A DNA stretch of 64,000 nucleotides from an uncultured Pontibacter sp. GTDB lineage: Bacteria > Bacteroidota > Bacteroidia > Cytophagales > Hymenobacteraceae. The position numbers were made by a program, and so were the translations under genes. The DNA is taken from contig NZ_CANMNI010000002.1 of assembly GCF_947499215.1 (NCBI RefSeq), forward strand, positions 620,001-684,000. Direction: 5' to 3'. Position 1 is the stretch's first letter. Each line of letters begins with the position of its first letter. Shown here piece after piece: positions 1 through 64,000 of the stretch. Under the pieces are notes generated by a model. It worked only from the letters and a program-made list of their open reading frames with translations, had not been told where the DNA came from and searched no databases.

Positions 1-47
1 CACTGCCTGTAGACGGGGCCAATTCACAGAAAGAAGAAAAGAAATAA
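1..47 (+). CDS. 3' end of an upstream gene, probably an efflux or secretion component
   Basis: The frame that starts at base 3 is open and reads a short Lys/Glu-rich tail (…SQKEEKK) ending in TAA at 45-47, only 7 bases before the ATG of the outer-membrane efflux gene. A charged tail so close to a TolC-like gene would fit the membrane-fusion (HlyD/AcrA-like) protein that usually precedes it, but 14 codons cannot identify a family. The assignment as coding rests only on the open frame and the spacing. Confidence 0.3.
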   Translation, partial: LPVDGANSQKEEKK

Positions 48-54
48 GGTGCGT

Positions 55-1494
55 ATGAATTTGAATCGTGCTTTTGTGGTCACGTTTGTCTGGTTGCTGT
101 CCTTAACAGGTATAGCCCGCCCTGCCGTGGCCCAGTCTGCCGACTCGGTGCGGGTGCTCACCATGCATGCGCTCTATGAACAAGTGCTGGCCTACCATCC
201 GCTGGCCTCGCAGGCGGCGCTTCTGGCTCAACAGGCCGATCAAGAGTTGCGCATGGCCCGCGGCGGCTTCGACCCCGTGATCAGCAGCAAGTATGGCGAA
301 AAACAGTTTTCCGATAAAGACTATTATACCTACTGGAACAACAGCCTGCGGGTGCCGCTGTGGTTTGGCCCGCAGCTTTTGGCAGGTTTTGAGCGCAACG
401 ACGGCCCCTATCTCAACCCTGAGAAGAGTACCCCATCGAACGGACTGAGCTACGCAGGTATAGCCATACCGCTGGGGCAGGGTTTGTTCATGGACGAGCG
501 CCGCGCCATGGTGCGGCAGGCCCAGTTGCTCCCGCGCATGGCCGAAGCCGACCGCCTCAAGCTTGTGAACAAACTCCTGCTGGATGTGGCCAAAGACTAC
601 TGGGACTGGCTCTATTATTATAATGAGGTGCTGGTATATGAAGAGGCACTAGAGTTGGCTGAGGTCAGGACAAGAGCCGTGAACGAGCGTGCCCGTCAAG
701 GCGACCTTGCCGCCATCGACACGGTGGAGGCCCGCACCGAGGCCCTTAACCGACGGGTGTTACTCAGCGCGGCGCTGCAGAAGTACAACAACAGCAAGCT
801 GCGCGTCGAGATGCACCTGTGGGACGCCGGCAACCAGCCGTTGGCGCTGGCGGCGAATGCCGTTCCCTCAGCGCTTGGCACCGAACTGGATCCGCTCAGC
901 CCTGAAGAGTTGCAGGAGTTGCTGGAACTGGCCAAAGTCAACCATCCCGAACTTATCAAACTCGATCTGAAAGGCCAGCAACTGGAAGTGGAGCGCCGCT
1001 TTGCCGCCGACAAGCTCAAGCCAAAACTGGATGTGGAATACAATCTCCTGCAGAGCGATTTCTTTATGAACGGAGACGCTTTTCAAGCACCTTACATGCG
1101 CAACAATTACAAGCTAGGCGTGAGCTTCAGTCAACCCCTCTTTTTAAGAGAAGAACGTGGGAAGCTGCAGCTCACCAAACTGAAGCAACAGGAGGTAGGT
1201 TTCCAACAGTCATACACAGTGCGTGCCATTGAAAACGAACTGGAGATGGTCTACAACGAGTGGATGGCATTGGAAGAACAGATTGCCTTGCAGGAACAGA
1301 TGGTAACGAATGCCCGTGTGTTGCAGGAAGGCGAGATCGTTAAATTCCAAAGCGGCGAGAGCTCCATCTTCCTAATCAACGCCCGCGAACAGAAGTTGCT
1401 CGAGTCCCAGATCAAACTCTACGACCTACGCAGCAAATACGCCAAAACAAAAGCGCAACTGTACTGGTCAGCGGGTGATATGCAGCGGGAGTAA
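55..1494 (+). CDS. TolC-family outer membrane efflux protein
   Basis: A 479-residue outer-membrane channel of the TolC/OEP family, which forms the outer duct of RND, ABC or type I export systems. The N-terminus is a signal peptide (about residues 1-27, hydrophobic core VVTFVWLLSLTGIA, cleavage near AVA-QS). Two OEP repeats follow: long amphipathic helices around 130-260 (…AKDYWDWLYYYNEVLVYEEALELAEVR) and 350-470 (…EMVYNEWMALEEQIALQEQMV), as expected for a helical barrel. A GTG lies at 49, but ATG at 55 gives a cleaner signal peptide. No pump gene follows; 500 bases without a gene come next, so this is probably the last gene of an efflux operon that lies mostly upstream of the window. The substrate cannot be told. 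The AGGTATA motif occurs twice here, both times coding Gly-Ile. Confidence 0.88.
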   Translation: MNLNRAFVVTFVWLLSLTGIARPAVAQSADSVRVLTMHALYEQVLAYHPLASQAALLAQQADQELRMARGGFDPVISSKYGEKQFSDKDYYTYWNNSLRVPLWFGPQLLAGFERNDGPYLNPEKSTPSNGLSYAGIAIPLGQGLFMDERRAMVRQAQLLPRMAEADRLKLVNKLLLDVAKDYWDWLYYYNEVLVYEEALELAEVRTRAVNERARQGDLAAIDTVEARTEALNRRVLLSAALQKYNNSKLRVEMHLWDAGNQPLALAANAVPSALGTELDPLSPEELQELLELAKVNHPELIKLDLKGQQLEVERRFAADKLKPKLDVEYNLLQSDFFMNGDAFQAPYMRNNYKLGVSFSQPLFLREERGKLQLTKLKQQEVGFQQSYTVRAIENELEMVYNEWMALEEQIALQEQMVTNARVLQEGEIVKFQSGESSIFLINAREQKLLESQIKLYDLRSKYAKTKAQLYWSAGDMQRE

Positions 1495-1996
1495 TGGCTA
1501 CTGCCGAATTAAGAATAGAGTGATGACGAGCCTCTTTCATCTGACCTGATGGGTTTGCTTTCAAAGTCAAATTGAAGGAGCGCCTAGTAGTTTTCTAAAG
1601 AATGTAGCAAACCGATGTGGACAAGTGGCGGTTATCAACAAAGTTGCTAACAAATTTAGCTGTCGTCTAAAATGATTAGCCATAAGTGCAACAATTTGTA
1701 GCGTGGGCTGGGAGTGCTAGGGTTGAGTTATTGATTATCTGGTGCAAGATTAACACTCCTGCCTCTTAGCAGAGGTGTTAGCGTTTGGCATAAGTCTCAC
1801 AATATTGGCTTTACACCCCTATAATCCCCTCAAGGGGATAGTTTTTGCCAGAACTTAACAGCCCTGCTACCCCTCAAGTGGACTACCGGTGCACGATTCG
1901 AGCAGGTCGCGACCTGTTCCTACAAACGGTTATACATTTATACCTGCCTGCGACGACGTTACACTGTAATGTCGCTACATCCTAACTCCTAAACTC
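1495..1996. other. 500-base gene-free interval with hairpins and a palindromic repeat
   Basis: No convincing coding frame is present. It holds three things: a perfect 6-bp stem with TCAA loop at 1824-1839 followed by AGTTTTT (a weak terminator candidate, far from the upstream gene); one copy of the palindromic intergenic repeat at 1891-1926; and an imperfect 9-bp hairpin at 1954-1974 just beyond the stop of the minus-strand surface protein, lacking a T-run. The rest looks like unconstrained spacer. Confidence 0.5.
1891..1926 (+). repeat. Palindromic intergenic repeat, copy 1
   Basis: It contains the perfect 14-bp palindrome CAGGTCGCGACCTG at 1903-1916, flanked by GCACGATTCG on the left and CTACAAA on the right. 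The same flanks and core recur at 4950-4981 (inverted), 13860-13890 (inverted, diverged) and 14014-14050. All copies are intergenic, which fits a REP/MITE-like family. Confidence 0.75.
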
Positions 1997-4735
1997 TTAC
2001 AGCCTCCCTCCTACCACGACCCGCTCCTTGTGCACACTCTTTTGCCCATCCAAGTCGAAGAGCTCGATGAAGAACAGGTAATAGCCGATTCCCGCTTTGG
2101 AGCCATCCTGCCGTGTGCCGTCCCAGCGGAAGAAGCCATCGGTGGCGAGCAACTCGTTTCGCACTAGTTTGCGCACTTCCCTCCCTTGTGCATCAAAAAC
2201 AGTAATGTTAGCGACAAGGCCGCTTTGGTCAGCGCTGTAATTGATAGTCGTGAAATCCTCATAGCCATCTCCGTCGGGTGAGAACACCTTGGGCTCAATG
2301 GTGAACATCCGCTGGGCCGCTATACCTTGCTGTGACTGAGAATTAATGTAGCCGGGTGTGGCAAAGACCATGGTGGCCGCTGAATGGAAATTGTCTGGCG
2401 TAGTCGGGCCGTCCAACCGGATACGCTCCAGCGAAATACCGTTACGGTCGTCGATCAGACTGAAGTGCATGCGCTCGGTATAGTCGAAGCGGTCTGCCAC
2501 GCGGTTATCAGGTTGCAAAACAATCACGGAACCAACTGCATCGGGGTAAGAGGGCAGTGAGGCCATCTGCAGGAAAGTCTCTTCCCGTGCTGCCGGGTAG
2601 TTGCTTTTAATGTTTTCAGGGTTGGTGGTAAGCACTACGTATTGGCCGGGTGCCAGTACATAAGGGGCTGTAGTAATCACACGCCGGTTGGCGATGCTGT
2701 CGTTGCTAATGTTGGCCAGTTGCCAGTTCTGCAGGTTGATGTATTTGTCGCTGCGGTTGACGAGCTCTACAAAATCCACGCCGCCGGGCCTAGGATTGAA
2801 CAGCACCTCGTTGATGACCACATCGCCGGGCTCGGGCGCAGACGGCAGGGCAAAAGTTGCCGTGAGTGGGTGCGAACTCAGGTTGCCGGCACAGTCGCGT
2901 ATACCTGTGGCGGTTAAGGTATAAAGCTGCCGCTCCTGCAGAGGGCCAGCGAGTTGCAAAATCACCTCCTCAAACAACGGTGATGCCACCTGCACACTGG
3001 CTATATCCATACCTGCCGGACTCAAGGTATAGCGCCCCACCTCCGCGACCTGCGCACTGTCAAGCCGCTCGTTAAAGCGCAGCAACAATCGATCAGGTGC
3101 TATTGCTATAACGCTGAGCAAAGTGGGCGGGGTGTTGTCAGGTATAGAGGCGGCGACGGAGTTAGGCTGGCCGGGAGTACCGCCGCGAGGGTCGTTGGAG
3201 ACCATCCAGTTTTCGGTACCAGCGCAGGGATTGCTCACATCAATCATCTCGAGGCTCCAGCCGCCGTTGCGCTTGGCATTGTCGCGGTACCACGTGTCGC
3301 TGTAGTTCACGGCATAGATCAGACGGCCATTGGGCTGGCGCAACTGCAGGAGCTCACCAGTGTTGTTCAGGCTCGGAAAATTGCTGATGCCGATCACTCG
3401 GCCAAACTGCGTAAAATTGGCCACCTGTGTGTTGGGTACGATCACGGCATATTCGCCCGGTTGCAGAAGAGCGCTGGGAAGCGTAGTAGTAGAGGTTGCG
3501 TCGGAGAGGCGTATACCTTGCAGCGTGAGCACCTTCTCAGTTGGGTTGTACAATTCGATGTACTCCACGGCAGGTAGCCCTACAGCCGGTGTTTCGCGGG
3601 CCATGATTTCGGTGATGAGCAATTCGTTATAGCCGGGCAGCACAGGCGGCAGCGCATACTGGAAAGTCAACTCCACTGGGCTTGGCAAAGCGTTGCCATA
3701 TAGATCGGCTATACCTGTCACCGCCATCGTATTCGCCCCATTCCGCAGCGGCTGCGCAAAAGTGAGCAAGACTGTACCGTTTTCGGTAAGCTCAGCAGAA
3801 GTCGGTTTGATGCTCCCGTTCAAGGTATAGTTGGCGAGGTTTTGGGCTTGTTCTGTGGCTAAGGGCTCGTTGAAGCGCAACTCCAGCGTTTGCGTACTCA
3901 GCGGCTGGGCGCTTTCCAGCACCGGCGGGGTTGTATCTGTAATCCGGAAATCATCAAAGTAAAACTTCTGGCTGTTGGCAGAGCTATACCTAACCAGCAC
4001 GCCAAAGTAGGCCGAGCGCTTGTGTGTAGCATCTGTAACTCTTCCCTGAGAGACGTAGCTCTGCCCCGTACCTGTCACATCAATCTCTAACTGCCACTCA
4101 TGCTCTACACTCCGCGTGACCCGCACCCGCACGATGGTGTTGGAAGTTGCCACGGTTTTGTCTTGCCCGTTGATGATGATCACAGGGGTCTTTCCAGCGT
4201 CTTTCCGGAACAAGCTCACTTCGTCGGGCGTACCACCGATACGCACAAAATAGCCGTTTAGGTCAGCGGACTTCAGCTCTTCTTTGTCCGAGATCAGGAA
4301 GATATCGGCATAATTGCTGGAGGAGGTTGCCAGTCGCAGGTTGGCCCAGAACTCCCAAACCGTACCTACCACTGCCTGTGAGGGCGTGGCAAGGTATAAT
4401 GTCGTGCCCGTCACTGCAGGTCCATTGCTCTGCAGCTGGTTCTGGGTATTCACGACAAAACTGTTCACATCACCAGCCCAAGTGGGGTTTTGGGTAAAAT
4501 TTCCGTCAGAGAAGTCGTCTTGAAGCTGGGCTGTGGCAAGGTATGGCAGCACAAGGAGAAGACTAGTAGCTAGCGTCCTTTGCGTAACACTCGCCTTGAT
4601 GTTATGGGAGATGAGGTAGTTTATACCTTCCACCACCATCAGAACCCATTTCGCCATACTGAATGCACCTTGGAGGCTAGTATGATAGGCAATGATCTGG
4701 TAATCTATAAATGCTTGGCGTAAAGTTTGTTTCAT
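1997..4735 (-). CDS. Secreted multidomain protein with two lamin-tail domains and FlgD-like C-terminus
   Basis: A 912-residue cell-surface or secreted protein. After a hydrophobic export signal (about residues 46-69, …SLLLVLPYLATAQ) come a LamG-like beta-sandwich region (about 75-265), a bacterial Ig-like domain starting DTTPPVLESAQ, a lamin-tail domain (NELLITEIMARETP…VEYIELYNP, about 370-500), a second Ig-like domain (DNTPPTLLSV), a second lamin-tail domain (VVINEVLFNPRPGGVDFVELVNRS, about 640-750), and a C-terminal FlgD/CHU_C-like module with KVFSPDGDGYEDF. Such tails are common on type IX-secreted and gliding-associated proteins. The signal core is unusually far from the first Met. A later Met (codon at 4639) gives a more normal leader, while a -7-like TAAGTTTT (minus strand, 4753-4760) suits 4735, so the start is uncertain. 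It stands alone and no enzyme domain is visible. Confidence 0.82.
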   Translation of the reverse strand: MKQTLRQAFIDYQIIAYHTSLQGAFSMAKWVLMVVEGINYLISHNIKASVTQRTLATSLLLVLPYLATAQLQDDFSDGNFTQNPTWAGDVNSFVVNTQNQLQSNGPAVTGTTLYLATPSQAVVGTVWEFWANLRLATSSSNYADIFLISDKEELKSADLNGYFVRIGGTPDEVSLFRKDAGKTPVIIINGQDKTVATSNTIVRVRVTRSVEHEWQLEIDVTGTGQSYVSQGRVTDATHKRSAYFGVLVRYSSANSQKFYFDDFRITDTTPPVLESAQPLSTQTLELRFNEPLATEQAQNLANYTLNGSIKPTSAELTENGTVLLTFAQPLRNGANTMAVTGIADLYGNALPSPVELTFQYALPPVLPGYNELLITEIMARETPAVGLPAVEYIELYNPTEKVLTLQGIRLSDATSTTTLPSALLQPGEYAVIVPNTQVANFTQFGRVIGISNFPSLNNTGELLQLRQPNGRLIYAVNYSDTWYRDNAKRNGGWSLEMIDVSNPCAGTENWMVSNDPRGGTPGQPNSVAASIPDNTPPTLLSVIAIAPDRLLLRFNERLDSAQVAEVGRYTLSPAGMDIASVQVASPLFEEVILQLAGPLQERQLYTLTATGIRDCAGNLSSHPLTATFALPSAPEPGDVVINEVLFNPRPGGVDFVELVNRSDKYINLQNWQLANISNDSIANRRVITTAPYVLAPGQYVVLTTNPENIKSNYPAAREETFLQMASLPSYPDAVGSVIVLQPDNRVADRFDYTERMHFSLIDDRNGISLERIRLDGPTTPDNFHSAATMVFATPGYINSQSQQGIAAQRMFTIEPKVFSPDGDGYEDFTTINYSADQSGLVANITVFDAQGREVRKLVRNELLATDGFFRWDGTRQDGSKAGIGYYLFFIELFDLDGQKSVHKERVVVGGRL

Positions 4736-5121
4736 GCGCAGATATTGTGGTGAAAACTTACGAACTTCGCAGCCGCAAAAGGAAAAGCCTGTGCAAACGT
4801 GAAGACATTCACTGGGCCGTAAGGCGCTGTGAGGTCGGAAAACCGGCCGCTTTTTGTAAAATTTAGAACTTTTACGCGAGCTAAGGGAGTTAGTTAGAAG
4901 AGTTTGGGAGTTAGTGGGTTAAGAAGGCAGAAAACTGTAAAGCATAACCTGTAGGGACAGGTCGCAACCTGTCCGAATCGTAAATAGGCATACAACTGCC
5001 TTTTCTTCGGAACAGCCATCGCACAGAAACAGGCTAAACCGGAATTAACAACTCAACAATTTAAACTTTCAACCCTATCAGCACATTAAAGAATTAACAC
5101 ATTAACCACATACCTTAAACA
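4736..5121. other. Intergenic region between divergent surface-protein and asd genes
   Basis: This gene-free divergent spacer carries a -7-like TAAGTTTT for the minus-strand gene (4753-4760), repeat copy 2 (4950-4981) and AT-rich sequence before asd. I could not find a good TAnnTTTG element for asd. Nothing else is recognisable. Confidence 0.45.
4950..4981 (-). repeat. Palindromic intergenic repeat, copy 2
   Basis: Read on the minus strand it is ACGATTCGGACAGG followed by TTGCGACCTGTCCC and TACA. It matches the copy at 14014-14050 almost base for base, apart from the palindrome centre (TTGCGA instead of TCGCGA). It is intergenic, like all the other copies. Confidence 0.75.
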
Positions 5122-6111
5122 ATGAAAGTAGCAGTAGTAGGCGCCACCGGATTGGTAGGCGGCGAGATTTTGAAAGTACTGGCGGAGCGTAACTTCCCGG
5201 TAACGGAATTATTGTTGGTTGCTTCTGAGAGATCTGTTGGTAAACAGATGGAGTTTAAGGGTAAACAGATAAAGGTGATCGGGATGCAGGACGCGATTGC
5301 GGCTGCCCCACAAATTGCCATTTTCTCAGCCGGCGGCAGCACCTCTACCGAGTGGGCCCCAAAGTTCGCCGAGGCAGGCATCGTGGTAGTAGACAACTCT
5401 TCGGCTTGGCGCATGGACCCTACCAAGAAGCTGGTGGTACCAGAGATCAACGCCAAAGAACTGACTAAAGAAGATAAGATCATTGCTAACCCGAACTGCT
5501 CGACCATCCAGATGGTAGTGGCTCTGAATAAGCTGCACGAAGAGCTGCAGGCGAAGCGCATTGTCGTGAGCACTTACCAGTCCGTGACAGGTACAGGCGT
5601 GAAAGCGGTGGAGCAGCTTATGAACGAGCGCGAAGGCAAAGAGGGCGAGAAAGCCTACCCGTATACCATCGACCTGAACGTGTTGCCGCACATCGACGTG
5701 TTTCAGGACAACGGTTATACCAAGGAGGAGATGAAGATGATCCTCGAAACAAAGAAGATCATGGGCGACGACTCTATCCGTGTAACCGCTACTGCCGTGC
5801 GCATCCCTGTGATGGGCGGTCACTCCGAGTCAGTGAATGTGGAATTTGAGAAGGACTTTACGCTGGACAAGGTATACCACATCCTGAATGAAACCGAAGG
5901 TGTGAAAGTGGTAGACGACGTAAAAAACCTCCAATACCCGATGCCGAAAGACGCGCACGGCAAAGACGAAGTGCTCGTTGGTCGTGTCCGCTTAGACGAA
6001 ACCCAGCCGCGTACGCTCAACATGTGGATCGTGGCAGATAACCTACGCAAAGGTGCTGCCACCAATGCTGTGCAGATTGCCGAGTATCTGGTGAAGCAGG
6101 GGTTGGTGTAG
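5122..6111 (+). CDS. asd: Aspartate-semialdehyde dehydrogenase
   Basis: Converts L-aspartyl-4-phosphate to L-aspartate-4-semialdehyde with NADPH, the branch-point step towards lysine/diaminopimelate, threonine and methionine. The 329-residue length is normal. The Rossmann loop GATGLVGGE lies at residues 7-15. The catalytic cysteine is Cys126 in NPNCSTIQ, and the substrate-binding RIPVMGGHSES stretch is present. It is a single-gene unit closed by a strong terminator at 6134-6166. Codon use is typical of the window and one AGGTATA copy lies inside the gene. No partner of the lysine pathway is nearby. Confidence 0.96.
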   Translation: MKVAVVGATGLVGGEILKVLAERNFPVTELLLVASERSVGKQMEFKGKQIKVIGMQDAIAAAPQIAIFSAGGSTSTEWAPKFAEAGIVVVDNSSAWRMDPTKKLVVPEINAKELTKEDKIIANPNCSTIQMVVALNKLHEELQAKRIVVSTYQSVTGTGVKAVEQLMNEREGKEGEKAYPYTIDLNVLPHIDVFQDNGYTKEEMKMILETKKIMGDDSIRVTATAVRIPVMGGHSESVNVEFEKDFTLDKVYHILNETEGVKVVDDVKNLQYPMPKDAHGKDEVLVGRVRLDETQPRTLNMWIVADNLRKGAATNAVQIAEYLVKQGLV

Positions 6112-6133
6112 GTATAAAATTCAATAAACCATA

Positions 6134-6166
6134 AAAAACGGAAGCTCTTATCGGGGCTTCCGTTTT
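6134..6166. terminator. Bidirectional rho-independent terminator after asd
   Basis: A 12-bp stem AAAAACGGAAGC / GCTTCCGTTTTT with a 10-base loop, ending in a T-run. It separates asd from the AT-rich mrr gene. Confidence 0.85.
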
Positions 6167-6261
6167 TGTTTAAAGAAATTAAGACATACCTGTAAGCACT
6201 AAGTTCCATAGGAAATATCATATATTTATGTGTTTCTAGTACTTAAGCCCTTAAATTCATC

Positions 6262-7119
6262 ATGAGCGAAATCTTCAAGTATAAATACGATGACTTATTT
6301 AACCCGACTCTAAAAGCACTTAAAAAACTCGGTGGCTCAGGATCTGTAAGCGAGATTGAAGAAGAGGTGATTGAAATTTTAAAACTATCTGAAGAAGAAG
6401 TTAACGACATTCATCGGGAAAGCACAACCAAACTCACCTACCGTTTAGCTTGGGCTAGGAACTATTTAAAACGCTATGGTTTACTTGAAAACTCAAAGAG
6501 AGGTGTTTGGGCATTAACAGAAAATGGTAAACAAACAGCTTCGGTTGATAAGAAACAAGTCAAGAGAACCATTATTAAGCTCGACAAAGAAGTCCGAGGG
6601 GAAAAAGAGAAACCTGTAGCTACAGATATAGAAAACGCCAGCGAAGAACTTATAGAGTTTTCATGGCAAGAGGAGCTACTGGATTCTGTAAAGAAAGTTT
6701 CCCCTGATAAATTTGAAAGACTATGCCAAAGGCTTCTCCGTGAACTGGGCTTTCTAAATGTAGAGGTCACACAACGCTCTAATGATGGCGGAATAGATGG
6801 CCAAGGTCTTATCAGGATTGGAGGTGTACTCTCTTTTCATGTTGTATTTCAGGCAAAGCGATATCAAGGCAGTGTTGGCTCGAGTGTAGTAAGAGACTTT
6901 AGAGGAGCCATGATCGGAAGAGCTGATAAGGGACTTATTTTGACCACTGGAACTTTCACTAGAGAAGCAAAGAAGGAAGCCAATAGAGACGGCGCTCCTC
7001 CTATAGATTTAATTGACGGAAATGAATTTGCCGAAAAGCTTAAAGAGCTTGGTCTTGGTGTAGAAATTGAGCTAGTCGAGAAGGTTAACATCAAAAAAGA
7101 ATGGTTCGCTGATTTTTAA
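6262..7119 (+). CDS. mrr: Mrr-family type IV restriction endonuclease
   Basis: A 285-residue protein with the two-domain Mrr layout. The N-terminal winged-helix Mrr_N-like domain (about 8-90, …LTYRLAWARNYLKRYGLLENSKRGVWALTENGK) is linked by a charged segment to a C-terminal Mrr catalytic domain (about 140-265). The nuclease core has FERLCQRLLRELGF, then GGIDG carrying the metal-binding Asp, then the QAKRY motif (Q-x-K) on the next strand, and ends in LILTTGTFTREAKKEA. Mrr enzymes cut DNA carrying modified bases, so they act as defence against methylated incoming DNA. There is no methyltransferase beside it, as expected for type IV. The gene is clearly richer in A+T than its neighbours and has no AGGTATA copy, which suggests acquisition from elsewhere. 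Which modification it recognises cannot be told. Confidence 0.88.
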   Translation: MSEIFKYKYDDLFNPTLKALKKLGGSGSVSEIEEEVIEILKLSEEEVNDIHRESTTKLTYRLAWARNYLKRYGLLENSKRGVWALTENGKQTASVDKKQVKRTIIKLDKEVRGEKEKPVATDIENASEELIEFSWQEELLDSVKKVSPDKFERLCQRLLRELGFLNVEVTQRSNDGGIDGQGLIRIGGVLSFHVVFQAKRYQGSVGSSVVRDFRGAMIGRADKGLILTTGTFTREAKKEANRDGAPPIDLIDGNEFAEKLKELGLGVEIELVEKVNIKKEWFADF

Positions 7120-7175
7120 TACCACCCCAATCCCCTCCCCGTTCGTAGTTAAATCAAACAACCTAAACCAAAGCT

Positions 7176-7568: not shown

Positions 7569-7623
7569 ACCGAAAAGGGTATAGAATCCGCTGGCGTAGA
7601 GCTATTAGCAGTAGCTAAGAGCT

Positions 7624-7631: not shown

Positions 7632-7662
7632 CATGAACAGCAGTTTCATCAACAATAGATAC

Positions 7663-56362: not shown

Positions 56363-56388
56363 CTCACTAAAAACTAAAATAAATCCAT

Positions 56389-56406: not shown

Positions 56407-56411
56407 TATTG

Positions 56412-56439
56412 CAAAGATAAACAACTATACATAAGTTTG
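56412..56439. promoter_or_regulatory. Divergent -7 elements for hxlR-type and oxidoreductase genes
   Basis: Minus strand TATCTTTG (56412-56419) and plus strand TAAGTTTG (56432-56439) are both full TAnnTTTG matches. The plus one has ATTG 20 bases upstream. They face away from each other around the operator. Confidence 0.6.
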
Positions 56440-56477
56440 CTACTGTAAATTATATAGTGACTAAAAAACAGCAACTT

Positions 56478-57131
56478 ATGAAGAATATAGCAGTTCTAGG
56501 AACGGGCATGGTGGGCAATACCATCGGCACCAAACTCATCAAATTGGGGTATAACGTCATGATGGGCAGCCGAAGCGCGACCAACGAAAAAGCGCTAGCT
56601 TGGGTTGAGGCCAATGGTGCAAATGCCTCCGCAGGTACTTTTGAAGACGCTGCCAGGTTCGGCGAACTCATCTTTAACTGCACGAAAGGAGAAGCCGCGC
56701 TGGAAGTTTTTAAGATGGCAGATATAGAAAACTTCAAAGGCAAAACCATTATCGACATCAGCAATCCGCTGGATTTCTCAAAAGGAATGCCACCCTCGCT
56801 TATACCGGAACTTTCAAACACCAACTCACTAGGTGAAAAAATCCAGAAGCTGTTACCGGAAGCGAATGTGGTCAAAACCCTCAACATCGTGAACTGTGAG
56901 GTGATGGTGGATGCAAAGAAAAGCGGTGGCGACCCAACCATGTTTATGAGCGGTAATAGCGCTGAGGCCAAAGAAGAGGTAAAAGGTATGCTGCAGCAGT
57001 TCGGCTGGACAGACATCATCGACTTGGGTGATATTACCACAGCGCGTGGCACGGAGATGATGCTGCCGATCTGGATCAGGACTTGGATGGCGACAGGCAA
57101 TGGTTATTTTGCTTTTAAGATAGTCCGATAG
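56478..57131 (+). CDS. NADPH-dependent F420-reductase-like oxidoreductase
   Basis: A 217-residue Rossmann-fold protein: MKNIAVLGTGMVGNTIGTKLIKLGYNVMMGSRS (G-x-G-x-x-G), then NASAGTFEDAARFGELIFNCTKGEAALEVFKMADIENFKGKTIIDISNPLDFSKGMPPSLI, the F420_oxidored pattern, and a C-terminal KTLNIVNCEVMVDAKKSGGDPTMFMSGNS. These proteins reduce F420, or often another acceptor, with NADPH. It is preceded by a shared operator with an HxlR regulator, suggesting that an electrophile or quinone stress signal induces it (inference). A GTG at 56457 would add seven residues; ATG 56478 is preferred. Confidence 0.87.
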   Translation: MKNIAVLGTGMVGNTIGTKLIKLGYNVMMGSRSATNEKALAWVEANGANASAGTFEDAARFGELIFNCTKGEAALEVFKMADIENFKGKTIIDISNPLDFSKGMPPSLIPELSNTNSLGEKIQKLLPEANVVKTLNIVNCEVMVDAKKSGGDPTMFMSGNSAEAKEEVKGMLQQFGWTDIIDLGDITTARGTEMMLPIWIRTWMATGNGYFAFKIVR

Positions 57132-57199
57132 GTTTCTCGCCATAGGTATAATCCGCAATTTTAAACTGTAACGGTGCTGGCTTCTACGGCCAAACCCGC

Positions 57200-57207
57200 T
57201 ATATTTG
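57200..57207 (+). promoter_or_regulatory. -7 promoter element of purN
   Basis: TATATTTG, full -7 match, placing the transcription start near 57214 inside the longer open frame and thus moving the purN start downstream. Confidence 0.6.
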
Positions 57208-57230
57208 CAGCTTCATTACAAAGCCTTACT

Positions 57231-57818
57231 TTGGAACGAGCAGCTAAAAAGAATATAGTCATTTTTGCTTCGGGTTCGGGCAGCAACGCACAGCGCCTGA
57301 TGGAGTACTTCGAGCACCACCCAGACATTCGTGTGGCCGCCCTGTTTGCCAACAACCCGAAAGCGTATGCCCTCAAAAGAGCCGAGACCTTCCACGTCCC
57401 GGCTTTTTTATTTTCCCGCGACGAGTTCTACAACACGGAGAAGGTACTGGAGCAAGTTCAGTCTTTCGAACCTCATCTGATCGTGCTGGCTGGTTTCTTG
57501 TGGCTGGTACCGCAGAACTTCCTGCAGGCTTTCCCGGACCGCATTATCAACATTCACCCTGCCCTGCTGCCCCAATACGGTGGCAAAGGCATGCACGGAC
57601 TCAATGTACACACGGCGGTCGTATCGGCTGGCGACAAGGAGTCAGGTATAACGATCCACCGCGTGAACGAGGAGTACGATAAAGGTGAGTTTGTGCTGCA
57701 AGAGCGCTGCCCCGTGCACCCCGAGGATACGCCTGAGGATCTAGCTGCCCGTGTGTTGCAACTCGAGCACAAATACCTACCCGAGGTGGTCGAGAAACTG
57801 GTGCTGCAACTGCCATAA
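57231..57818 (+). CDS. purN: Phosphoribosylglycinamide formyltransferase
   Basis: Adds a formyl group from 10-formyl-tetrahydrofolate to GAR, the third step of purine synthesis. About 195 residues from TTG 57231: LERAAKKNIVIFASGSGSNAQRLMEYF (phosphate-binding GSGSN), LAGFLWLVPQNFL, the active-site INIHPALLPQYGGKGMHG with the catalytic Asn-His, and GITIHRVNEEYDKGEFVLQE with Asp of the catalytic triad. A GTG at 57174 would extend the frame, but it lies upstream of the -7 at 57200-57207. The next gene, purH, also belongs to purine synthesis and starts 52 bases later. Confidence 0.92.
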   Translation: MERAAKKNIVIFASGSGSNAQRLMEYFEHHPDIRVAALFANNPKAYALKRAETFHVPAFLFSRDEFYNTEKVLEQVQSFEPHLIVLAGFLWLVPQNFLQAFPDRIINIHPALLPQYGGKGMHGLNVHTAVVSAGDKESGITIHRVNEEYDKGEFVLQERCPVHPEDTPEDLAARVLQLEHKYLPEVVEKLVLQLP

Positions 57819-57870
57819 GCCCAGCATCATTAGCACATTAAAAAATTAGCACATTATATAGCCCATACCT

Positions 57871-59394
57871 ATGCAATCTGTCAAAATCAAATCCGCACTT
57901 ATCTCGGTTTACTACAAAGACCGCCTCGAGCCACTCGTAGAGCTCCTGAAGCAGCACAACGTGACCATCTACTCTACTGGTGGCACACAAGCCTTCATGG
58001 AAGAGCAGGGCGCTGAAGTAGTAGCCGTAGAAGACCTGACTGCTTATCCGTCTATTTTCGGTGGCCGCGTAAAGACCCTGCACCCGAAAGTGTTCGGTGG
58101 CATTCTGCACCGCCGTGCCAACGAGAGCGATCTGGCCGAGCGTGAGCAGTACGAGATCCCCCCGATCGACTTGGTAGTGGTAGACTTATACCCATTCGAG
58201 GAGACGGTGGCATCAGGCGCATCAGAAGCGGATGTGATCGAGAAAATTGACATTGGCGGTATTTCGCTGATCAGAGCGGCAGCCAAGAATTTTCAAGACG
58301 TGTTGATCGTGTCTTCGCGCGAGCAATACGACGAGGTGGTAGACTTGCTGAAAGAAAAAGACGGTGCTACTGAATTAACAGACCGCAAGCGTTTCGCAGC
58401 CAAGGCGTTCGATATTTCTTCCAACTACGATACGCATATCTTCAACTACCTGAGCAAAGAGCAGGACATCAACGTGTTCAAACAGAGCGTTCGTGAGGCT
58501 ACTCCATTGCGCTACGGTGAGAACCCGCACCAGCAAGGCACTTTCTATGGCAAACTGGAGGACCTGTTTGAGCAACTGAACGGCAAGCAGCTTTCTTATA
58601 ACAACCTCGTGGACGTGGACGCTGCCGTGGCACTGGGCGCTGAGTTCGAGGAGCCGGCCGTAGCTATCCTCAAGCATACCAACGCCTGCGGTTGCGCTAC
58701 GGGTGAGAGCATTAAAGAAGCTTACCTGTCTGCCCTATCCACAGACCCAGTTTCGGCCTTTGGTGGTGTGATCATCGCCAACCGTACCATCGATATGGGT
58801 GCTGCTGAGGAGTTGAACAAGCTGTTCTTCGAGGTACTGATCGCTCCTAATTTTGATGCTGACGCACTGGAGCTACTGCGCACCAAGAAAAACCGCATCC
58901 TACTCAAGCAGAAGCCAGTGGAGCTGCCAGCCAAGCAATTCAAGACACTCCTAAACGGCGTGATTGAGCAGGACAAAGACCTAAAGACAGAGTCAGAAGC
59001 CGATTTCAAAACCGCCACCAAGCGTGAGCCATCTGCCGAAGAGAAAAAGGCGCTGGTATTTGCGGCCAAGGTTTGCAAGCACACGAAGTCCAACACCATC
59101 GTGCTGGCCACCGACAAAATGATGATCTCGAGCGGTGTGGGCCAAACCTCCCGTGTAGACGCGCTGCGTCAGGCCATTGAGAAAGCCAAGAGCTTTGGCT
59201 TCGACATCAGTAACACGGTGATGGCCTCCGACGCCTTCTTCCCGTTCCCGGATTGTGTGGAGATCGCGGACCAAGCAGGTATAAAAGCGGTGGTACAGCC
59301 CGGCGGTTCTATCAAAGACCAAGACTCAATTGATTACTGCGACGCCCACAGCATGGCGATGGTAATGACTGGTGTGCGCCACTTCAAGCACTAA
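57871..59394 (+). CDS. purH: Bifunctional AICAR transformylase / IMP cyclohydrolase
   Basis: Catalyses the last two steps to IMP. 507 residues. The N-terminal cyclohydrolase (about 1-190) has KSALISVYYKDRLEPLVELL, STGGTQAFMEEQGAEV, PSIFGGRVKTLHPKVFGGILHRR and KIDIGGISLIRAAAKNF. The transformylase half has LRYGENPHQQGTFYG, VAILKHTNACGCATGES (catalytic Lys-His), SDAFFPFPDCVEIADQAGIKAVVQPGGSIKDQDSID and a C-terminal VRHFKH. It follows purN, the other folate-dependent enzyme of the pathway, by 52 bases and ends at a terminator. Confidence 0.97.
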   Translation: MQSVKIKSALISVYYKDRLEPLVELLKQHNVTIYSTGGTQAFMEEQGAEVVAVEDLTAYPSIFGGRVKTLHPKVFGGILHRRANESDLAEREQYEIPPIDLVVVDLYPFEETVASGASEADVIEKIDIGGISLIRAAAKNFQDVLIVSSREQYDEVVDLLKEKDGATELTDRKRFAAKAFDISSNYDTHIFNYLSKEQDINVFKQSVREATPLRYGENPHQQGTFYGKLEDLFEQLNGKQLSYNNLVDVDAAVALGAEFEEPAVAILKHTNACGCATGESIKEAYLSALSTDPVSAFGGVIIANRTIDMGAAEELNKLFFEVLIAPNFDADALELLRTKKNRILLKQKPVELPAKQFKTLLNGVIEQDKDLKTESEADFKTATKREPSAEEKKALVFAAKVCKHTKSNTIVLATDKMMISSGVGQTSRVDALRQAIEKAKSFGFDISNTVMASDAFFPFPDCVEIADQAGIKAVVQPGGSIKDQDSIDYCDAHSMAMVMTGVRHFKH

Positions 59395-59414
59395 GGTATA
59401 GCATACTGAGTACC

Positions 59415-59446
59415 TAAAGCCCCACCCCAATCAGGTGGGGCTTTTT
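59415..59446 (+). terminator. Terminator after purH
   Basis: AAAGCCCCACC / GGTGGGGCTTTTT, 11-bp stem and T-run. Confidence 0.85.
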
Positions 59447-59447
59447 C

Positions 59448-59457
59448 ATAGGTATAC
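59448..59457. repeat. Perfect AGGTATACCT palindrome
   Basis: Two overlapping copies of the frequent heptamer head to head form this perfect 10-bp palindrome, placed just after a terminator, as uptake-signal pairs are in other bacteria. Confidence 0.7.
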
Positions 59458-59650
59458 CTAATGTTATTTAAACGTACTCTGGCACTTAACTTTCGTCAAA
59501 AACAAATTTTCGATAAAAACTTCATCCAATTTTGTACTGATAAAAGCGTTATCAGGGGCAGTACATAGAAATTGTATGTAAAATGGCTTAGAAAAAAATT
59601 AAAACTTCTGCCTCTTCTTCATCAGCATTATTAATTCCGCTGAAAATCAC

Positions 59651-59658
59651 TAATTTTG
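59651..59658 (+). promoter_or_regulatory. -7 promoter element of the mre operon
   Basis: TAATTTTG, full consensus, about 75 bases upstream of the mreB ATG. No clear -33. Confidence 0.6.
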
Positions 59659-59731
59659 CCGCTAGTTTTCGACAAGAAATATTGTATATTAAACATATAA
59701 CGAGGCAGCCGCACGCCTTTATAAAATAAGA

Positions 59732-60757
59732 ATGGGACTATTTAACTTTCTTACCAGCGATATTGCCATTGATTTGGGTACCGCCAATACTCTGATCATC
59801 CATAACGATAAGATTGTGGTGGACGAGCCATCCATCATCGCCGTGGATCGCACCACGGGCCGCGTACTTGCCATTGGCCGCAACGCCATGCAAATGCATG
59901 AAAAAACCCACGAGAACATCAAGACCATTCGTCCGCTGAAAGACGGTGTGATTGCCGACTTCCACGCCGCTGAGGAGATGATCCGTGGTATGATCAAGAT
60001 GATCGACACGGGCCGCCGCTTGTTCCAGCCTTCGCACCGCATGGTAATCTGTATACCTTCAGGTATAACGGAAGTGGAAAAACGTGCCGTACGTGACTCG
60101 GCCCAGCACGCCGGAGCCAAAGAGGTATGGATGATCCAAGAGCCAATGGCCGCTGCGATAGGTATAGGTATAGACGTAGAGCAGCCGATCGGTTCTATGA
60201 TCGTGGACATCGGGGGTGGTACTACTGAGATTGCCGTTGTGGCTCTATCCGGTATCGTGTGCGACCAGTCTATCCGCATTGCCGGTGACGTGTTCACCAA
60301 AGATATTCTGGACTACATGCGCCGCCAGCACAACCTGCTGATTGGTGAGCGTTCCGCTGAGAAAATCAAGATCGAAGTTGGGTCGGCTCTGACTGAATTG
60401 GAGAACCCACCAGCTGACTACGAGATTCGTGGCCGCGACCTGATGACAGGTATACCGAAGGTAATCAAAGTAACCTATCAGGAGATCGCGATTGCGCTGG
60501 ACAAGTCAGTGTCCAAGATCGAGGAAGCGGTACTGAAGGCGCTGGAGATCGCGCCGCCGGAGCTGTCTGCCGACATCTACGACAACGGTATCCACCTGAC
60601 AGGCGGTGGCGCCTTGCTGCGTGGTTTCGACAAGCGTCTGGCTGCCAAAACCAAACTGCCAATCCACATTGCCGAAGATCCGCTTAGAGCGGTGGTACGC
60701 GGCACGGGCGCGGCTATCAAAAACTTAGAAGGTTTTAAGAACGTCCTGCTGACCTAA
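59732..60757 (+). CDS. mreB: Rod shape-determining protein MreB
   Basis: Bacterial actin that forms membrane-bound filaments and directs side-wall peptidoglycan synthesis. 341 residues: FNFLTSDIAIDLGTANTLIIHNDKIVVDEPSIIAVD (phosphate-1), VEKRAVRDSAQHAGAKEVWMIQEPMAAAIGIGIDVEQPIGSMIVDIGGGTTEIAVVAL (phosphate-2 and connector), HLTGGGALLRGFDKRLAAKT (adenosine loop). The AGGTATA motif occurs four times as Gly-Ile codons inside (60060, 60158, 60164, 60448), two in tandem. First gene of the mreBCD-PBP2 unit, with 9 bases to mreC. Confidence 0.97.
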   Translation: MGLFNFLTSDIAIDLGTANTLIIHNDKIVVDEPSIIAVDRTTGRVLAIGRNAMQMHEKTHENIKTIRPLKDGVIADFHAAEEMIRGMIKMIDTGRRLFQPSHRMVICIPSGITEVEKRAVRDSAQHAGAKEVWMIQEPMAAAIGIGIDVEQPIGSMIVDIGGGTTEIAVVALSGIVCDQSIRIAGDVFTKDILDYMRRQHNLLIGERSAEKIKIEVGSALTELENPPADYEIRGRDLMTGIPKVIKVTYQEIAIALDKSVSKIEEAVLKALEIAPPELSADIYDNGIHLTGGGALLRGFDKRLAAKTKLPIHIAEDPLRAVVRGTGAAIKNLEGFKNVLLT

Positions 60758-60766
60758 AAGTACCGC

Positions 60767-61630
60767 ATGCGGAATCTATTTGCCTTTATTTACCGGTTCC
60801 GTGCGTTCCTTATATTCGTGCTGCTGGAGGCGCTCTGCATTTTCCTGATCGTGCGCTACAACACGTATCAGGGAGCTGCCATGTTCAACTCCGCTAACAC
60901 CTATGTAGGGCAGGTACTTGAGTTTCAGAGTGGTGTAACCGACTACTTCAGGCTGGCGTCTGTGAACAGTACGCTAGCCCGGGAGAATGCTGCCCTACGC
61001 CAAGAGTTAATGCTCTATAGGGAAGAGGCCGAGGCCGACAGCACCGCACAGCTCGACACGACGCTTTATGCCCCTACTGACACCTTAAAAGCACAGCCTT
61101 TTATTCTGCATGCCGGTCGGGTGATCAACAATTCGGTACGCCGCACCAATAATTACCTGACATTGGCGGCCGGTAGTCAGGATGGCGTGAAACCGGGTAT
61201 GGGCGTGATTTCTCCTAACGGGGCCGTCGGACGCGTAAAAACGGTATCGAAGAAATACGCTACCGTTACCTCACTGCTGCACTCCCAAATGCTGATCTCA
61301 GCCAAGATCAAAAAGAATAACACCTTCGGAACCATCAAGTGGACTGGCGGAGATTACCGCACGGCCCTGCTTGACTATATTCCGCTGCACGTAAAGCCGG
61401 AGATAGGCGACACCATTGTAACAAGTGGCTATAACACCGTATTTCCGGAGGGAATCAATGTGGGCACGATCAGCAAAGTGGACCGGGAGGCGGACAAGAG
61501 CTTCTATACCATCCGGGTGCAACTGGCCGTTGATTTTGCGCAGCTTTCTTATGTGTATGTGGTGGAGAACCCCCTGAGAGTGGAGCGGGACTCTTTAGAA
61601 CTGGAAGCAGGTATACAACCCAATGAATAG
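60767..61630 (+). CDS. mreC: Rod shape-determining protein MreC
   Basis: A 287-residue inner-membrane protein with one N-terminal span (FRAFLIFVLLEALCIFLIV), a coiled coil (about 60-95, NSTLARENAALRQELMLYREEAE) and a beta-rich periplasmic domain (HAGRVINNSVRRTNNYLTLAAGSQDGVKPGMGVISPNGAVGRVKTVSKKYATVTSLLHS…GDTIVTSGYNTVFPEGINVGTI), the MreC signature. It activates PBP2 in the elongasome. Its stop overlaps the start of mreD by 8 bases. Confidence 0.94.
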   Translation: MRNLFAFIYRFRAFLIFVLLEALCIFLIVRYNTYQGAAMFNSANTYVGQVLEFQSGVTDYFRLASVNSTLARENAALRQELMLYREEAEADSTAQLDTTLYAPTDTLKAQPFILHAGRVINNSVRRTNNYLTLAAGSQDGVKPGMGVISPNGAVGRVKTVSKKYATVTSLLHSQMLISAKIKKNNTFGTIKWTGGDYRTALLDYIPLHVKPEIGDTIVTSGYNTVFPEGINVGTISKVDREADKSFYTIRVQLAVDFAQLSYVYVVENPLRVERDSLELEAGIQPNE

Positions 61631-62147
61631 TAGCTTAGGTTTAAGACATATCGTACAGTTTGTCGTGTTTGTGGCCTTGCAAATACTGCTGATGGACAGC
61701 CTTGTGCTTTTTGGCACCGGCTTCAGCTTTATTTACATCGCTTTCCTGCTTTTCCTGCCAATCGACATGAACAGAGTGCTGTTGCTCTTTCTGGGCTTTG
61801 TAGCCGGTTTTGCTGTCGATATTTTTTACGACACCATGGGCATTCACGCGGCGGCAAGCGTGTTGCTGGCCTATTTAAGGCCTTTCATTTTGAACCTTCT
61901 CACACCCCGAGATGGTTACGATACCAATGATTCGGTTAACATACACATCATGGGCTGGCGCTGGTTTCTGGCCTATGCCCTCACACTGATTTTGGTGCAC
62001 CATACGGCTGTTTTCCTTCTGGAGATTTTCAGCTTGGAAGGACTGTCGGCGGCAGTTCCAAAGATTCTGTTGAGTGTGCTGTTCACCGGGGTTGTTATGG
62101 TTATCCTACAATTACTGTTCTTCTCCCTTAAGAGAGCGAATAGATGA
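61623..62147 (+). CDS. mreD: Rod shape-determining membrane protein MreD
   Basis: A 174-residue polytopic membrane protein with about five helices (FVVFVALQILLMDSLVLFG, FIYIAFLLFLPIDMNRVLLLFLGFVAGFAVDIFYDTMGIHAAASVLLAYLRPFIL…). The D-x-x-x-x-x-x-G-x-H segment is typical. It overlaps mreC and the next gene (4 bases), so the operon is translationally coupled. Confidence 0.9.
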   Translation: MNSSLGLRHIVQFVVFVALQILLMDSLVLFGTGFSFIYIAFLLFLPIDMNRVLLLFLGFVAGFAVDIFYDTMGIHAAASVLLAYLRPFILNLLTPRDGYDTNDSVNIHIMGWRWFLAYALTLILVHHTAVFLLEIFSLEGLSAAVPKILLSVLFTGVVMVILQLLFFSLKRANR

Positions 62148-63973
62148 ATTATCTCGAAAACAGAAAGTACGTCATACAAGCAATCTTCTTGGCCGTGGGA
62201 GTGGTCTACGCGCTGCGCCTGTTTTACATCCAAGTGGTGGACAGCAGCTACAAGCAGGCCGCTGAGACCAATGCTATCAAGACGGTTATCCAATATCCTT
62301 TCCGGGGCCTGATCTATGATCGTAACGGCGATTTGCTGGTGCAGAATACGCCCGTGTATGACCTCATGATCGTGCCCAAAGAGGCCCGCAACATCGACAC
62401 GCTGCGACTGGCCCAGATGCTTGATATTCCGTTGGAGGACGCCCGCGAACGCTTCAAGAAAGCCCGCGCCTATTCTTGGGTCAAGCCCTCTATCTTTCAG
62501 CAGATGTTGAGCACGCAGGATTTTGCCCACATTCAGGACAACCTGATCGATTTCCCCGGCTTCTACATTAATGCCCGGACGGCCCGCGGCTATCCGCACC
62601 AGAGTCTGGGGCATGCGCTGGGCTACATCGCCGAAATCAGCCCGAAACAGTTGGAGGATACCTCGTACCAAGGCTATCGTCCCGGTGACTACATCGGCAA
62701 AGCAGGTATAGAGATGGCCTACGAAAAGTACCTGATGGGCAAACGTGGTGTCAAGTATAAGATGGTAAACGTGCGCGGGATCGATAAAGGCTCGTTTAAG
62801 GACGGTGCTTACGATACACTTTCCATAGCCGGCCAGAACATGGTGAGCACCATCGATCTGGACCTACAGGCATACGGCGAGCACCTGATGAACGGTGCCA
62901 AAGGCAGTGTTGTAGCTATAGAGCCAAAGACAGGCGAGATTCTGGCTTACATTTCGGCGCCATTCTACGACCCAAACCTGTTCACCGGCAAAGACTACGG
63001 CAAGAACTACATGGAACTGTTGCAAGACCCGGACAAGACCATGTTCAACCGCCCGATCATGGCCGACCAAAACCCGCCGGGCTCCATCTTTAAACTCACA
63101 CAGGCACTCATCGCGCTGGAGGAAGGCGTGATCAATCCGCGCACAACCTACGCCTGCAACAAGTCGCTGGTGAACTGCCACCCGCACCCCTCGCCGCTTG
63201 ATCTGTATGGTGCGGTACAGCACTCCTGCAACCCGTGGTTCTTCCAAGCCTACAAGGCGCTGATCAACCAAGGCAAGTCGAAGAATACGTTTACCGACAC
63301 CTCGCTGGGCCTGAAAGACTGGCGCGAACATGTGCTAACCTTTGGTTTCGGCAAGAAACTGGGGATAGACATATCAGGTGAGAAATCAGGTATTATCGCC
63401 TCAACCGACCTGTATGACCGGGTGTATGGTAAGAACCGCTGGAAGTACTCTACGATCTACTCACTCAGCATCGGGCAGGGCGAACTGGGCGTAACGCCGC
63501 TGCAGATGGCGAACTTTATGGCCATCATCGCTAACAAAGGCTACTATGTGACCCCGCACCTCATCCGCTCGATTGGCGATGACGGCAAGCCTTTGGCAGA
63601 AAACTACGAGCGCCACTATACCTCTGTAAAACCTCATCACTACGAGCCCATCATAGAAGGCATGGCCGAAGTAGTACGCGCTGGTACGGCCCGCCGTGCC
63701 AATCTAGAGAAAGTAGGTATAGTCGTTTGCGGCAAGACGGGAACGGCCCAAAATCCGCAGGGCCCTGACCACGCCGTATTTGTGGCTTTCGCACCGAAAG
63801 ATGACCCGAAGATCGCCATTGCCGTCTATGTAGAACATGGCAAGTGGGGCGGCCAATCGGCAGCGCCTATCGCCGGTCTGATGATCGAGAAGTACCTGAC
63901 CGACACGGTGACCATGAAGCTACAGGAGAAATGGGTGTTGAGCCGCGAGTATTTGAACATTAAATCGAAGTAA
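62144..63973 (+). CDS. mrdA: Penicillin-binding protein 2 (elongasome transpeptidase)
   Basis: A 609-residue class B penicillin-binding protein that crosslinks side-wall peptidoglycan. N-terminal membrane anchor (KYVIQAIFLAVGVVYALRLFYIQVV), pedestal domain with RGLIYDRNGDLLVQNTPVYDLM, then the transpeptidase: catalytic Ser in PGSIFK (S-x-x-K), HSCN (S-x-N) and CGKTGTAQNP (K-T-G). GKAGIEMAYEKYLMGKRG is typical of PBP2. Length is normal. It follows mreD with a 4-base overlap and precedes a gene beginning 3 bases after its stop, probably rodA. Confidence 0.95.
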   Translation: MNYLENRKYVIQAIFLAVGVVYALRLFYIQVVDSSYKQAAETNAIKTVIQYPFRGLIYDRNGDLLVQNTPVYDLMIVPKEARNIDTLRLAQMLDIPLEDARERFKKARAYSWVKPSIFQQMLSTQDFAHIQDNLIDFPGFYINARTARGYPHQSLGHALGYIAEISPKQLEDTSYQGYRPGDYIGKAGIEMAYEKYLMGKRGVKYKMVNVRGIDKGSFKDGAYDTLSIAGQNMVSTIDLDLQAYGEHLMNGAKGSVVAIEPKTGEILAYISAPFYDPNLFTGKDYGKNYMELLQDPDKTMFNRPIMADQNPPGSIFKLTQALIALEEGVINPRTTYACNKSLVNCHPHPSPLDLYGAVQHSCNPWFFQAYKALINQGKSKNTFTDTSLGLKDWREHVLTFGFGKKLGIDISGEKSGIIASTDLYDRVYGKNRWKYSTIYSLSIGQGELGVTPLQMANFMAIIANKGYYVTPHLIRSIGDDGKPLAENYERHYTSVKPHHYEPIIEGMAEVVRAGTARRANLEKVGIVVCGKTGTAQNPQGPDHAVFVAFAPKDDPKIAIAVYVEHGKWGGQSAAPIAGLMIEKYLTDTVTMKLQEKWVLSREYLNIKSK

Positions 63974-63976
63974 GGT

Positions 63977-64000
63977 ATGCCAGCAACAGGACATCGTGTG
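63977..64000 (+). CDS. Start of the next gene, probably rodA (cut by window edge)
   Basis: An open frame from ATG 63977, 3 bases after the PBP2 stop, runs to the end of the window for eight codons (MPATGHRV). By gene order, rodA, the SEDS glycosyltransferase that pairs with PBP2, is expected here; the few codons cannot confirm it. Confidence 0.35.

Follow-up and report, generated by a model that had tools for sequence, protein, structure and literature searches.

A heptamer with clade-bound one-base dialects in Pontibacter, possibly a self-label of the DNA uptake sequence type

The Pasteurellaceae and Neisseriaceae both have type IV pili. Uptake words have been described for both families (PMC7811141). 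The DNA uptake sequences (DUS) of the Neisseriaceae form dialects that are read by the minor pilin ComP (PMC3630211, PMC3868556, PMC12061091), and a single genome can hold two of them: S. muelleri carries two dialects in near equal numbers, and there are relatives without an obvious word (PMC3630211). The uptake signal sequences (USS) of the Pasteurellaceae are iterated words linked to a preference for self-DNA (PMC7811141, PMC12616744), and in cyanobacteria the highly iterated word HIP1 is replaced in some lineages by alternate words that go with matching methyltransferases (PMC4390886). Within the Bacteroidota, Riemerella combines ComEC and a helix-hairpin-helix (HHH) protein with the lack of a type IV pilus (PMC8459023), and R. 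columbina takes up its own DNA preferentially (PMC7965970). Here we describe the heptamer AGGTATA in a 64,000-nucleotide stretch (hereafter the window) of an uncultured Pontibacter sp. (contig NZ_CANMNI010000002.1, positions 620,001 to 684,000), and its counterparts across the genus.

Like the DUS, the Pontibacter word is short, is present in thousands of copies per genome and forms clade-bound dialects that differ by single bases. The DUS have 10-12 bases, have been assayed for uptake and belong to another phylum, whereas the Pontibacter word has seven bases and a function that we infer. The USS, also from another phylum and tied to pilus-based uptake, are longer than the heptamer as well. 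HIP1 and its alternates are GC-rich palindromes linked to methyltransferases, unlike the AT-rich, asymmetric Pontibacter word. In Riemerella the top k-mers are AT-rich, mostly A-runs, at about 1.7 to 8 times expectation by composition (PMC7965970), and the available parts of the sources report neither a sharp word nor dialects (PMC8459023, PMC7965970).

The window holds 60 copies of AGGTATA and 56 of its complement TATACCT, 116 in all, close to the hand count of about 56 and about 54 (about 110) in a first-pass annotation made from the window alone. Base composition (zero-order) predicts 7.8 copies, an excess of 14.9-fold that agrees with the roughly 14-fold given there, and by this measure AGGTATA is the most enriched 7-mer of the window. 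The excess persists against Markov models of order 1 (4.6 copies expected), order 2 (10.1, or 7.3 with the motif masked) and order 3 (20.5), which argues against base composition as its cause; a low-order background that predicts the frequency of the word was looked for and not found. Under a maximal-order (k-2) model, in which the background is set by the sub-words of the motif itself, AGGTATA is not singled out in the window. Most copies had been thought to extend to CAGGTATAGCC, but only 11 of the 116 do so; the commonest extension is AGGTATAG, with 61 of the 116. The longest stretch without the motif is 2,528 bases. Over the whole source genome (G000; 4,309,691 bases in 6 contigs) there are 5,748 copies, 2,882 forward and 2,866 reverse, so that the balance of orientations noted at first holds genome-wide, and a search for loss of the excess outside the window was negative. 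In reversed letter order the heptamer occurs 141 and 184 times. A purH comparison with named genomes puts G000 in Pontibacter, its best named matches being P. virosus and P. indicus.

We counted AGGTATA, AAGTATA, AACTATA and CTATATA on both strands of 50 whole Pontibacter genomes, calling a genome rich above 4,500 copies of AGGTATA or above 4,000 copies of AAGTATA or AACTATA. By these cut-offs one of the three words is abundant in 39 of the 50 genomes, at about 820 to 3,030 copies per megabase. Twelve are rich in AGGTATA (5,748 to 9,303 copies, the source genome being the lowest), 20 in AAGTATA (4,114 to 11,818), four in AACTATA (12,524 to 13,168) and three in both AAGTATA and AACTATA (G018, G033 and G055). 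Nine genomes are word-poor (G013, G113, G109, G131, G095, G073, G125, G028 and G127), none of the three words exceeding its reversed control there by more than about four-fold. G115 has a weak GGTATA form (3,132 AGGTATA vs 545 reversed). CTATATA, at 4,166 copies in G002 vs about 320 to 900 in the other 49 genomes, may be a further dialect; TATATA in general is there four times over an order-2 background (L083, L250). AGGTAGA, considered as the heptamer of G125 (19 kb, L267), was dropped because the overlapping AGGTAGA, GTAGAGA and TAGAGAG look like a short tandem array. Seven genomes (G081, G089, G093, G097, G109, G123 and G125) were sampled around ComEC and were counted whole in the word counts.

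Records with species names give the same picture. AGGTATA is the top heptamer in all 11 of the loci L003-L013, which come from P. virosus, P. indicus, P. amylolyticus, P. aquaedesilientis, P. lucknowensis, P. ramchanderi, P. roseus and four further species. P. ruber is topped by AAGTATA and P. fetidus has AACTATA plus AAGTATA; no word of this kind ranks first in P. harenae (10 AGGTATA in 21.5 kb) or in P. beigongshangensis (none). The heptamer is thus mostly of the form A(A/G)(G/C)TATA, with a one-base change between clades. This dialect nature is visible only with other genomes at hand, and the reading made from the window alone is partly supported.

To place the dialects on a phylogeny we used a ComEC tree of 49 genomes, a single-protein tree with a midpoint root that leaves out G043 (a fragment of 222 residues), includes G119 and G087 as partial sequences and has three long branches flagged. 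In this tree the AGGTATA genomes, here 11 in number, make up a single clade (support 96/99); a second clade (100/100) comprises the four AACTATA genomes and the three mixed ones. G038, with 10,614 AAGTATA and 3,531 AACTATA, branches beside the AACTATA/mixed clade under the midpoint root. The AAGTATA genomes are scattered over the remainder, and the word-poor ones lie in several places. The simplest reading of this pattern would make AAGTATA the ancestral word, derive the other two from it by changes at the second and third base, and imply several losses.

The copies are also retained between species. Among the 11 AGGTATA species, an aligned copy is found intact in the other species in 66% of cases vs 25% for frame-matched flanking heptamers, over 2,789 pair cells that share species and hence are not independent; conservation beyond what the proteins require, a check proposed with the initial reading, was therefore found. 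Five other heptamers gave 10 to 44%. Towards G000 the values are 46% for the word and 18% for the flanks (230 cells), and towards five related genomes without the AGGTATA dialect 4% vs 14% (669 cells). Among the 268 copies that align in seven or more other species, 58 are kept in at least 90% of these species and 16 in at most 10%. AAGTATA positions are common to P. ruber and P. fetidus in 10 of 19 cases, and AGGTATA positions read AAGTATA in P. ruber for 3 of 9 in P. indicus, 2 of 13 in P. amylolyticus and 3 of 12 in P. roseus. One-letter losses comprise ten substitution types in about 14 weighted events; gains amount to three single-step cases among 28 sites, too few to use.

The anatomy of the word was studied in larger samples, 464 kb of G000 and 220 kb each of G083 and G107; the genes behind the results on frame, spacing, ATA codons, gain and loss, and guanine-plus-cytosine (GC) class were called by a simple script. 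Heptamer copies number 621 in G000 (57 expected), 594 in G083 (31) and 576 in G107 (18). Immediately after the word T is avoided and A or G favoured; at the base that precedes it, G000 and G083 disfavour G. The information is held in two or three flanking bases and there is next to none beyond, which argues against a dispersed mobile element. One-letter neighbours occur at 0.69 to 6.9 times expectation, and changes at the first, second or last base are among those best tolerated; no neighbour is strongly depleted, and Vsr-like repair was rejected on this ground. Within genes the word exceeds synonymous shuffles 2.6- to 29-fold in every usable frame and on both strands, sense and antisense, as the first-pass annotation had seen in outline; codon or dipeptide bias was therefore set aside as a cause. 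The one unusable frame, of TATAGTT, would hold a stop codon. Avoidance of ATA, which had been suggested, is not strong: 1,827 of 8,546 isoleucine codons (21%) in the G000 sample are ATA, and 239 of the 1,827 fall within the motif.

Copies are two to four times denser outside genes than inside them (per kb, 2.47 vs 1.16 in G000, 6.63 vs 1.95 in G083 and 6.63 vs 1.60 in G107). They hold no single position relative to gene starts or stops, and close inverted pairs besides the overlapping palindrome are few; a promoter or terminator role was rejected as the cause on these grounds. No regular spacing was seen (coefficient of variation of intervals 1.08-1.49). Neighbouring copies less than 60 bases apart are in excess, partly through overlapping palindromes and, in G000, period-6 arrays. 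AGGTATA, AAGTATA and AACTATA are asymmetric and full 10-base palindromes are a minority, as pairs per copies 9/621 in G000 (about 0.2 pairs expected in the 464 kb), 10/576 in G107 and, in the form AACTATAGTT, 60/594 in G083.

With respect to replication, orientations are 310/311 in G000 and 306/288 in G083; G129 shows a weak leading-strand excess that is not significant (346 vs 302, 20 samples). In G107 (L166-L175) there is a local bias, with 85 forward and 133 reverse copies in the first 80 kb and 181 and 125 in the next 120 kb, and in its co-directional spacers 107 copies run along the genes vs 64. Clear replication polarity was thus not found in G000, G083 or G129, with a local bias in G107 only, and a polar signal of the Chi or KOPS kind was rejected on these counts.

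The copies in the window, with the overlapping ones listed separately, are as follows.

108..63721, + strand: AGGTATA, 60 copies, first bases at 108, 456, 2917, 3025, 3140, 3823, 4392, 5870, 6110, 8178, 8837, 10043, 12980, 13771, 14232, 17130, 17435, 19412, 21743, 22150, 22880, 24644, 27697, 29031, 29619, 29846, 29863, 29869, 31358, 32198, 32517, 33111, 33249, 35158, 38589, 39234, 39688, 42537, 42775, 45825, 46092, 46382, 46845, 47251, 49236, 51808, 52581, 55571, 57144, 57644, 59277, 59394, 59450, 60061, 60160, 60166, 60448, 61609, 62704, 63715
325..63623, - strand: AGGTATA (TATACCT on the + strand), 56 copies, first bases on the + strand at 325, 1939, 2321, 2900, 3512, 3710, 3985, 4622, 7701, 8748, 9291, 9438, 9523, 9702, 10236, 10452, 13632, 14086, 15387, 15521, 16101, 17382, 18369, 22266, 22587, 24554, 26262, 28173, 29499, 29541, 30811, 31461, 34016, 34424, 34481, 34487, 35774, 36016, 37342, 38274, 38614, 38979, 40326, 41989, 42107, 43969, 45699, 47212, 51006, 51898, 53196, 55962, 56124, 59453, 60052, 63617
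59450..59459, both strands: 10-base palindrome AGGTATACCT, two overlapping AGGTATA copies, one per strand
29863..29875, + strand: pair of AGGTATA overlapping at a 6-base step
60160..60172, + strand: pair overlapping in the same way
34481..34493, - strand: pair overlapping in the same way

Among the genes of the window, the one at 22340-24688 encodes a type IX secretion protein that resembles PorZ, and the one at 1997-4735 a large protein that combines a Big_5 domain and a CHU_C sorting domain with two lamin-tail stretches.

The word is scarce in DNA that appears to be recently acquired, as seen in one island, one plasmid of another species and the GC classes of three genomes. In the G083 sample the longest motif-free stretch measures 7,274 bases, where a maximum of about 2,398 would be expected; this and several other gaps sit in an AT-rich polysaccharide (O-antigen) cluster that looks horizontally acquired. 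Seven of eight genes scanned in this cluster match Pfam families, including glycosyltransferases and a Wzz-type chain-length protein; the match of a Wzy-like polymerase lies below the cut-off of its family. Some other long gaps are large conserved genes, not foreign ones. In the lowest GC tenth of G083 genes the word stands at 1.7 times expectation, vs 23.5 and 26.6 in the upper 70%; the fall is milder in G000 (6.4 vs 10.8 and 14.9) and in G107 (10.8 vs 30.6 and 38.2). On a P. actiniarum plasmid (150,000 of 204,027 bases) AAGTATA occurs 52 times vs 21.4 expected (2.4-fold), and on the G129 chromosome 648 times vs 51.8 expected (12.5-fold), a comparison in which the chromosomal dialect of P. 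actiniarum itself is not established. The plasmid also carries genes annotated as a DNA methyltransferase and, next after it, a DEAD/DEAH helicase (L268, 31910-36360), possibly a type III restriction-modification pair. Within the window, the mrr gene (6262-7119) has no copy, as first described, but only 1.56 would be expected at mean density and the absence is not significant; the membrane gene at 54719-55957, also described as free of copies, has one at 55571.

As far as sampled, the word is confined to Pontibacter, a conclusion drawn from counts of ARSTATA against a reversed control in 291 genomes of the order (285 outside Pontibacter, in 114 other genera) and from an unbiased heptamer screen with an order-3 background in stretches of about 20 kb. 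The highest ARSTATA ratio read outside the genus is 2.2 (G185); the six Pontibacter genomes drawn gave 11.9, 5.8, 5.0, 4.7, 2.0 (G013) and 1.3 (G002). In the screen, word-rich Pontibacter samples scored 6.7 to 15.5, except G064 and G087, which are not topped by their own word. Outside Pontibacter (11 stretches drawn from five further genera in the family, and 52 named loci no shorter than 15 kb) the best scores were at most 6.4, save two. One of these, AACGCTA (score 8.5; L125, G001), comes from another genus of the family, has 17 copies in 20 kb vs 2.1 expected and is possibly a different iterated word; the other, CCTAGGT (8.7; 15 copies vs 1.4 expected in 20 kb; L129, G004), is a word or a local repeat. 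Other words may therefore exist elsewhere. A record titled Bifidobacterium breve (L066, a metagenome-assembled genome) has a purH 70% identical to that of Pontibacter and is probably a mislabelled or mixed bin.

We favour, at a probability of roughly 0.5, the reading that Pontibacter as a genus has a self-recognition word working like a DNA uptake sequence, with AGGTATA as the local dialect. The sequence data agree with such a system in the genome-wide excess of a short word on both strands and in clade-bound dialects one or a few bases apart. The retention between species, the excess over synonymous shuffles in all usable frames, the higher density in non-coding DNA and the graded tolerance of one-letter neighbours count in its favour, as do the occurrence of ComEC in all 50 genomes and that of a protein like the Riemerella HHH protein, uninterrupted in 49. 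The likeness to uptake sequences and HIP1 drawn in the first-pass annotation is the right comparison. A word that has no clear polarity, is dispensable, is bound to clades and is scarce in foreign DNA is best fitted by a self-label for transformation. That the word is dispensable follows from the nine genomes with little or none of it, which is easier to accept if the process behind the word is optional than if it is core repair. Uptake sequences are the nearest known parallel for dialects, including two of them in a single genome and relatives that lack the word, and we count the own-DNA preference of R. columbina on the same side. A surface or periplasmic DNA receptor of a Bacteroidota competence machinery independent of type IV pili would prefer word-bearing DNA; such fragments would be taken up and recombined more often, and copies would spread and be restored by molecular drive. 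A new dialect would arise when the preference of the receptor shifts by one base, and two-dialect genomes would be intermediates. The more specific proposal, that a receptor of Pontibacter's own, unrelated to type IV pilins, reads the seven-base word, switched its preferred base at least twice in the genus and thereby set barriers to transformation between sister clades, is tentative and falls somewhat short of an even chance.

Several observations weigh against this reading. All competence genes tested are also present in word-poor genomes, so that presence does not track the word. ComEC and HHH_3, like the AddB-type nuclease domain PDDEXK_1 (PF12705), each occur in all 50 genomes and carry no signal as markers. 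ComEC is interrupted in the word-rich G043 (9,303 copies), G119 (13,109) and G087 (5,476), possibly through an assembly error or a recent loss. In 49 of the 50 genomes, all but G087, there is an uninterrupted protein of 304-346 residues that matches HHH repeatedly and resembles the Riemerella HHH protein essential for transformation (PMC8459023). In G087 ComEC (C1:2771217-2771876) and the HHH protein (C1:2078296-2078647) are both interrupted, which suggests a loss of competence. The type IV pilus platform PF00482 was found in none of the 50 genomes vs 13 of 14 controls, although a very divergent platform could be missed. A ComP-type receptor, and a type IV pilus reader in general, is therefore unlikely, and Pontibacter differs in this from the known uptake-sequence systems, in which a type IV minor pilin is the reader. 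DUF5689, taken from a Riemerella screen, was dismissed as the receptor because it occurs in only 22 of 50 genomes and lies beside a SusD-like gene in G000; no receptor was found among the candidates in the 50 genomes. No Pontibacter has been demonstrated to be competent, a word of seven bases is shorter than the Neisseriaceae 10-mers, the local orientation bias in G107 is unexplained, and the plasmid comparison carries the limit given above.

The same data bear on other explanations. In a HIP1-like arrangement, a genus-wide DNA methyltransferase would modify the heptamer, copies would be created and kept by methylation-linked repair or by use of the mark, and dialects would follow enzyme specificity. 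HIP1 is a comparable iterated word whose alternates go with matching enzymes (PMC4390886), and the heptamer holds adenines on both strands. HIP1 is palindromic, however, and the heptamer, which is not, would be hemi-modified at best after replication; nor are one-letter neighbours depleted, as site-directed repair might give. We consider this explanation unlikely, and about equally so the idea that a nucleoid-associated or chromosome-organising protein binds the word, with a specificity that drifts from one clade to another. Binding of that kind would account for a word that is genome-wide, unpolarised, denser outside genes and retained between species, and scarcity on acquired DNA could mean sites not yet gained, but complete or near loss in several lineages and one-base switches at thousands of sites are hard to reconcile with an essential architectural protein, and the intervals (coefficient of variation 1.08-1.49) show no regular spacing.

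In other bacteria Chi words can have seven bases; they function in a single orientation and are found preferentially on the leading strand. If the word were a signal of the Chi type, recognised by AddAB/RecBCD in break repair, it could draw on the AddB-type nuclease domain in all 50 genomes, the weak leading-strand excess in G129 and the local bias in G107; yet this nuclease is also present in every word-poor genome, the counts in G000 and G083 are even or nearly so, and the G129 bias is not significant, which leaves the signal very improbable. Least probable of all is a neutral mutational or gene-conversion bias that favours the heptamer without any reader. Copies are indeed densest in intergenic DNA, where constraint is low, and short tandem and palindromic overlaps occur. 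Against such a bias are the 11- to 32-fold excess over the order-2 background with its steep drop at one-letter neighbours, the retention of 0.66 vs 0.25, the variety of one-letter losses (ten types in about 14 weighted events) and the confinement of one-base switches to clades.

In the literature covered, which excludes most subscription papers and all preprints, we found no account of such a word in Pontibacter, nor of the three heptamers. If the uptake-like reading is true, this would be the first uptake-word system in the Bacteroidota and the first without a type IV pilus, and the two-dialect intermediates would show how such a language changes. The origin, spread and switching of uptake words is an old open question, and one environmental genus holds a widespread and probably ancestral word, two words one base away from it, mixed genomes, one further word and several losses, so that the process of word change can be read from Pontibacter genomes. 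Should a receptor be found, its residues could be compared with the single-base differences between the words. Should something other than an uptake receptor prove to be the reader, thousands of sites in each genome would be shaped by an agent not yet known, a result no less surprising.

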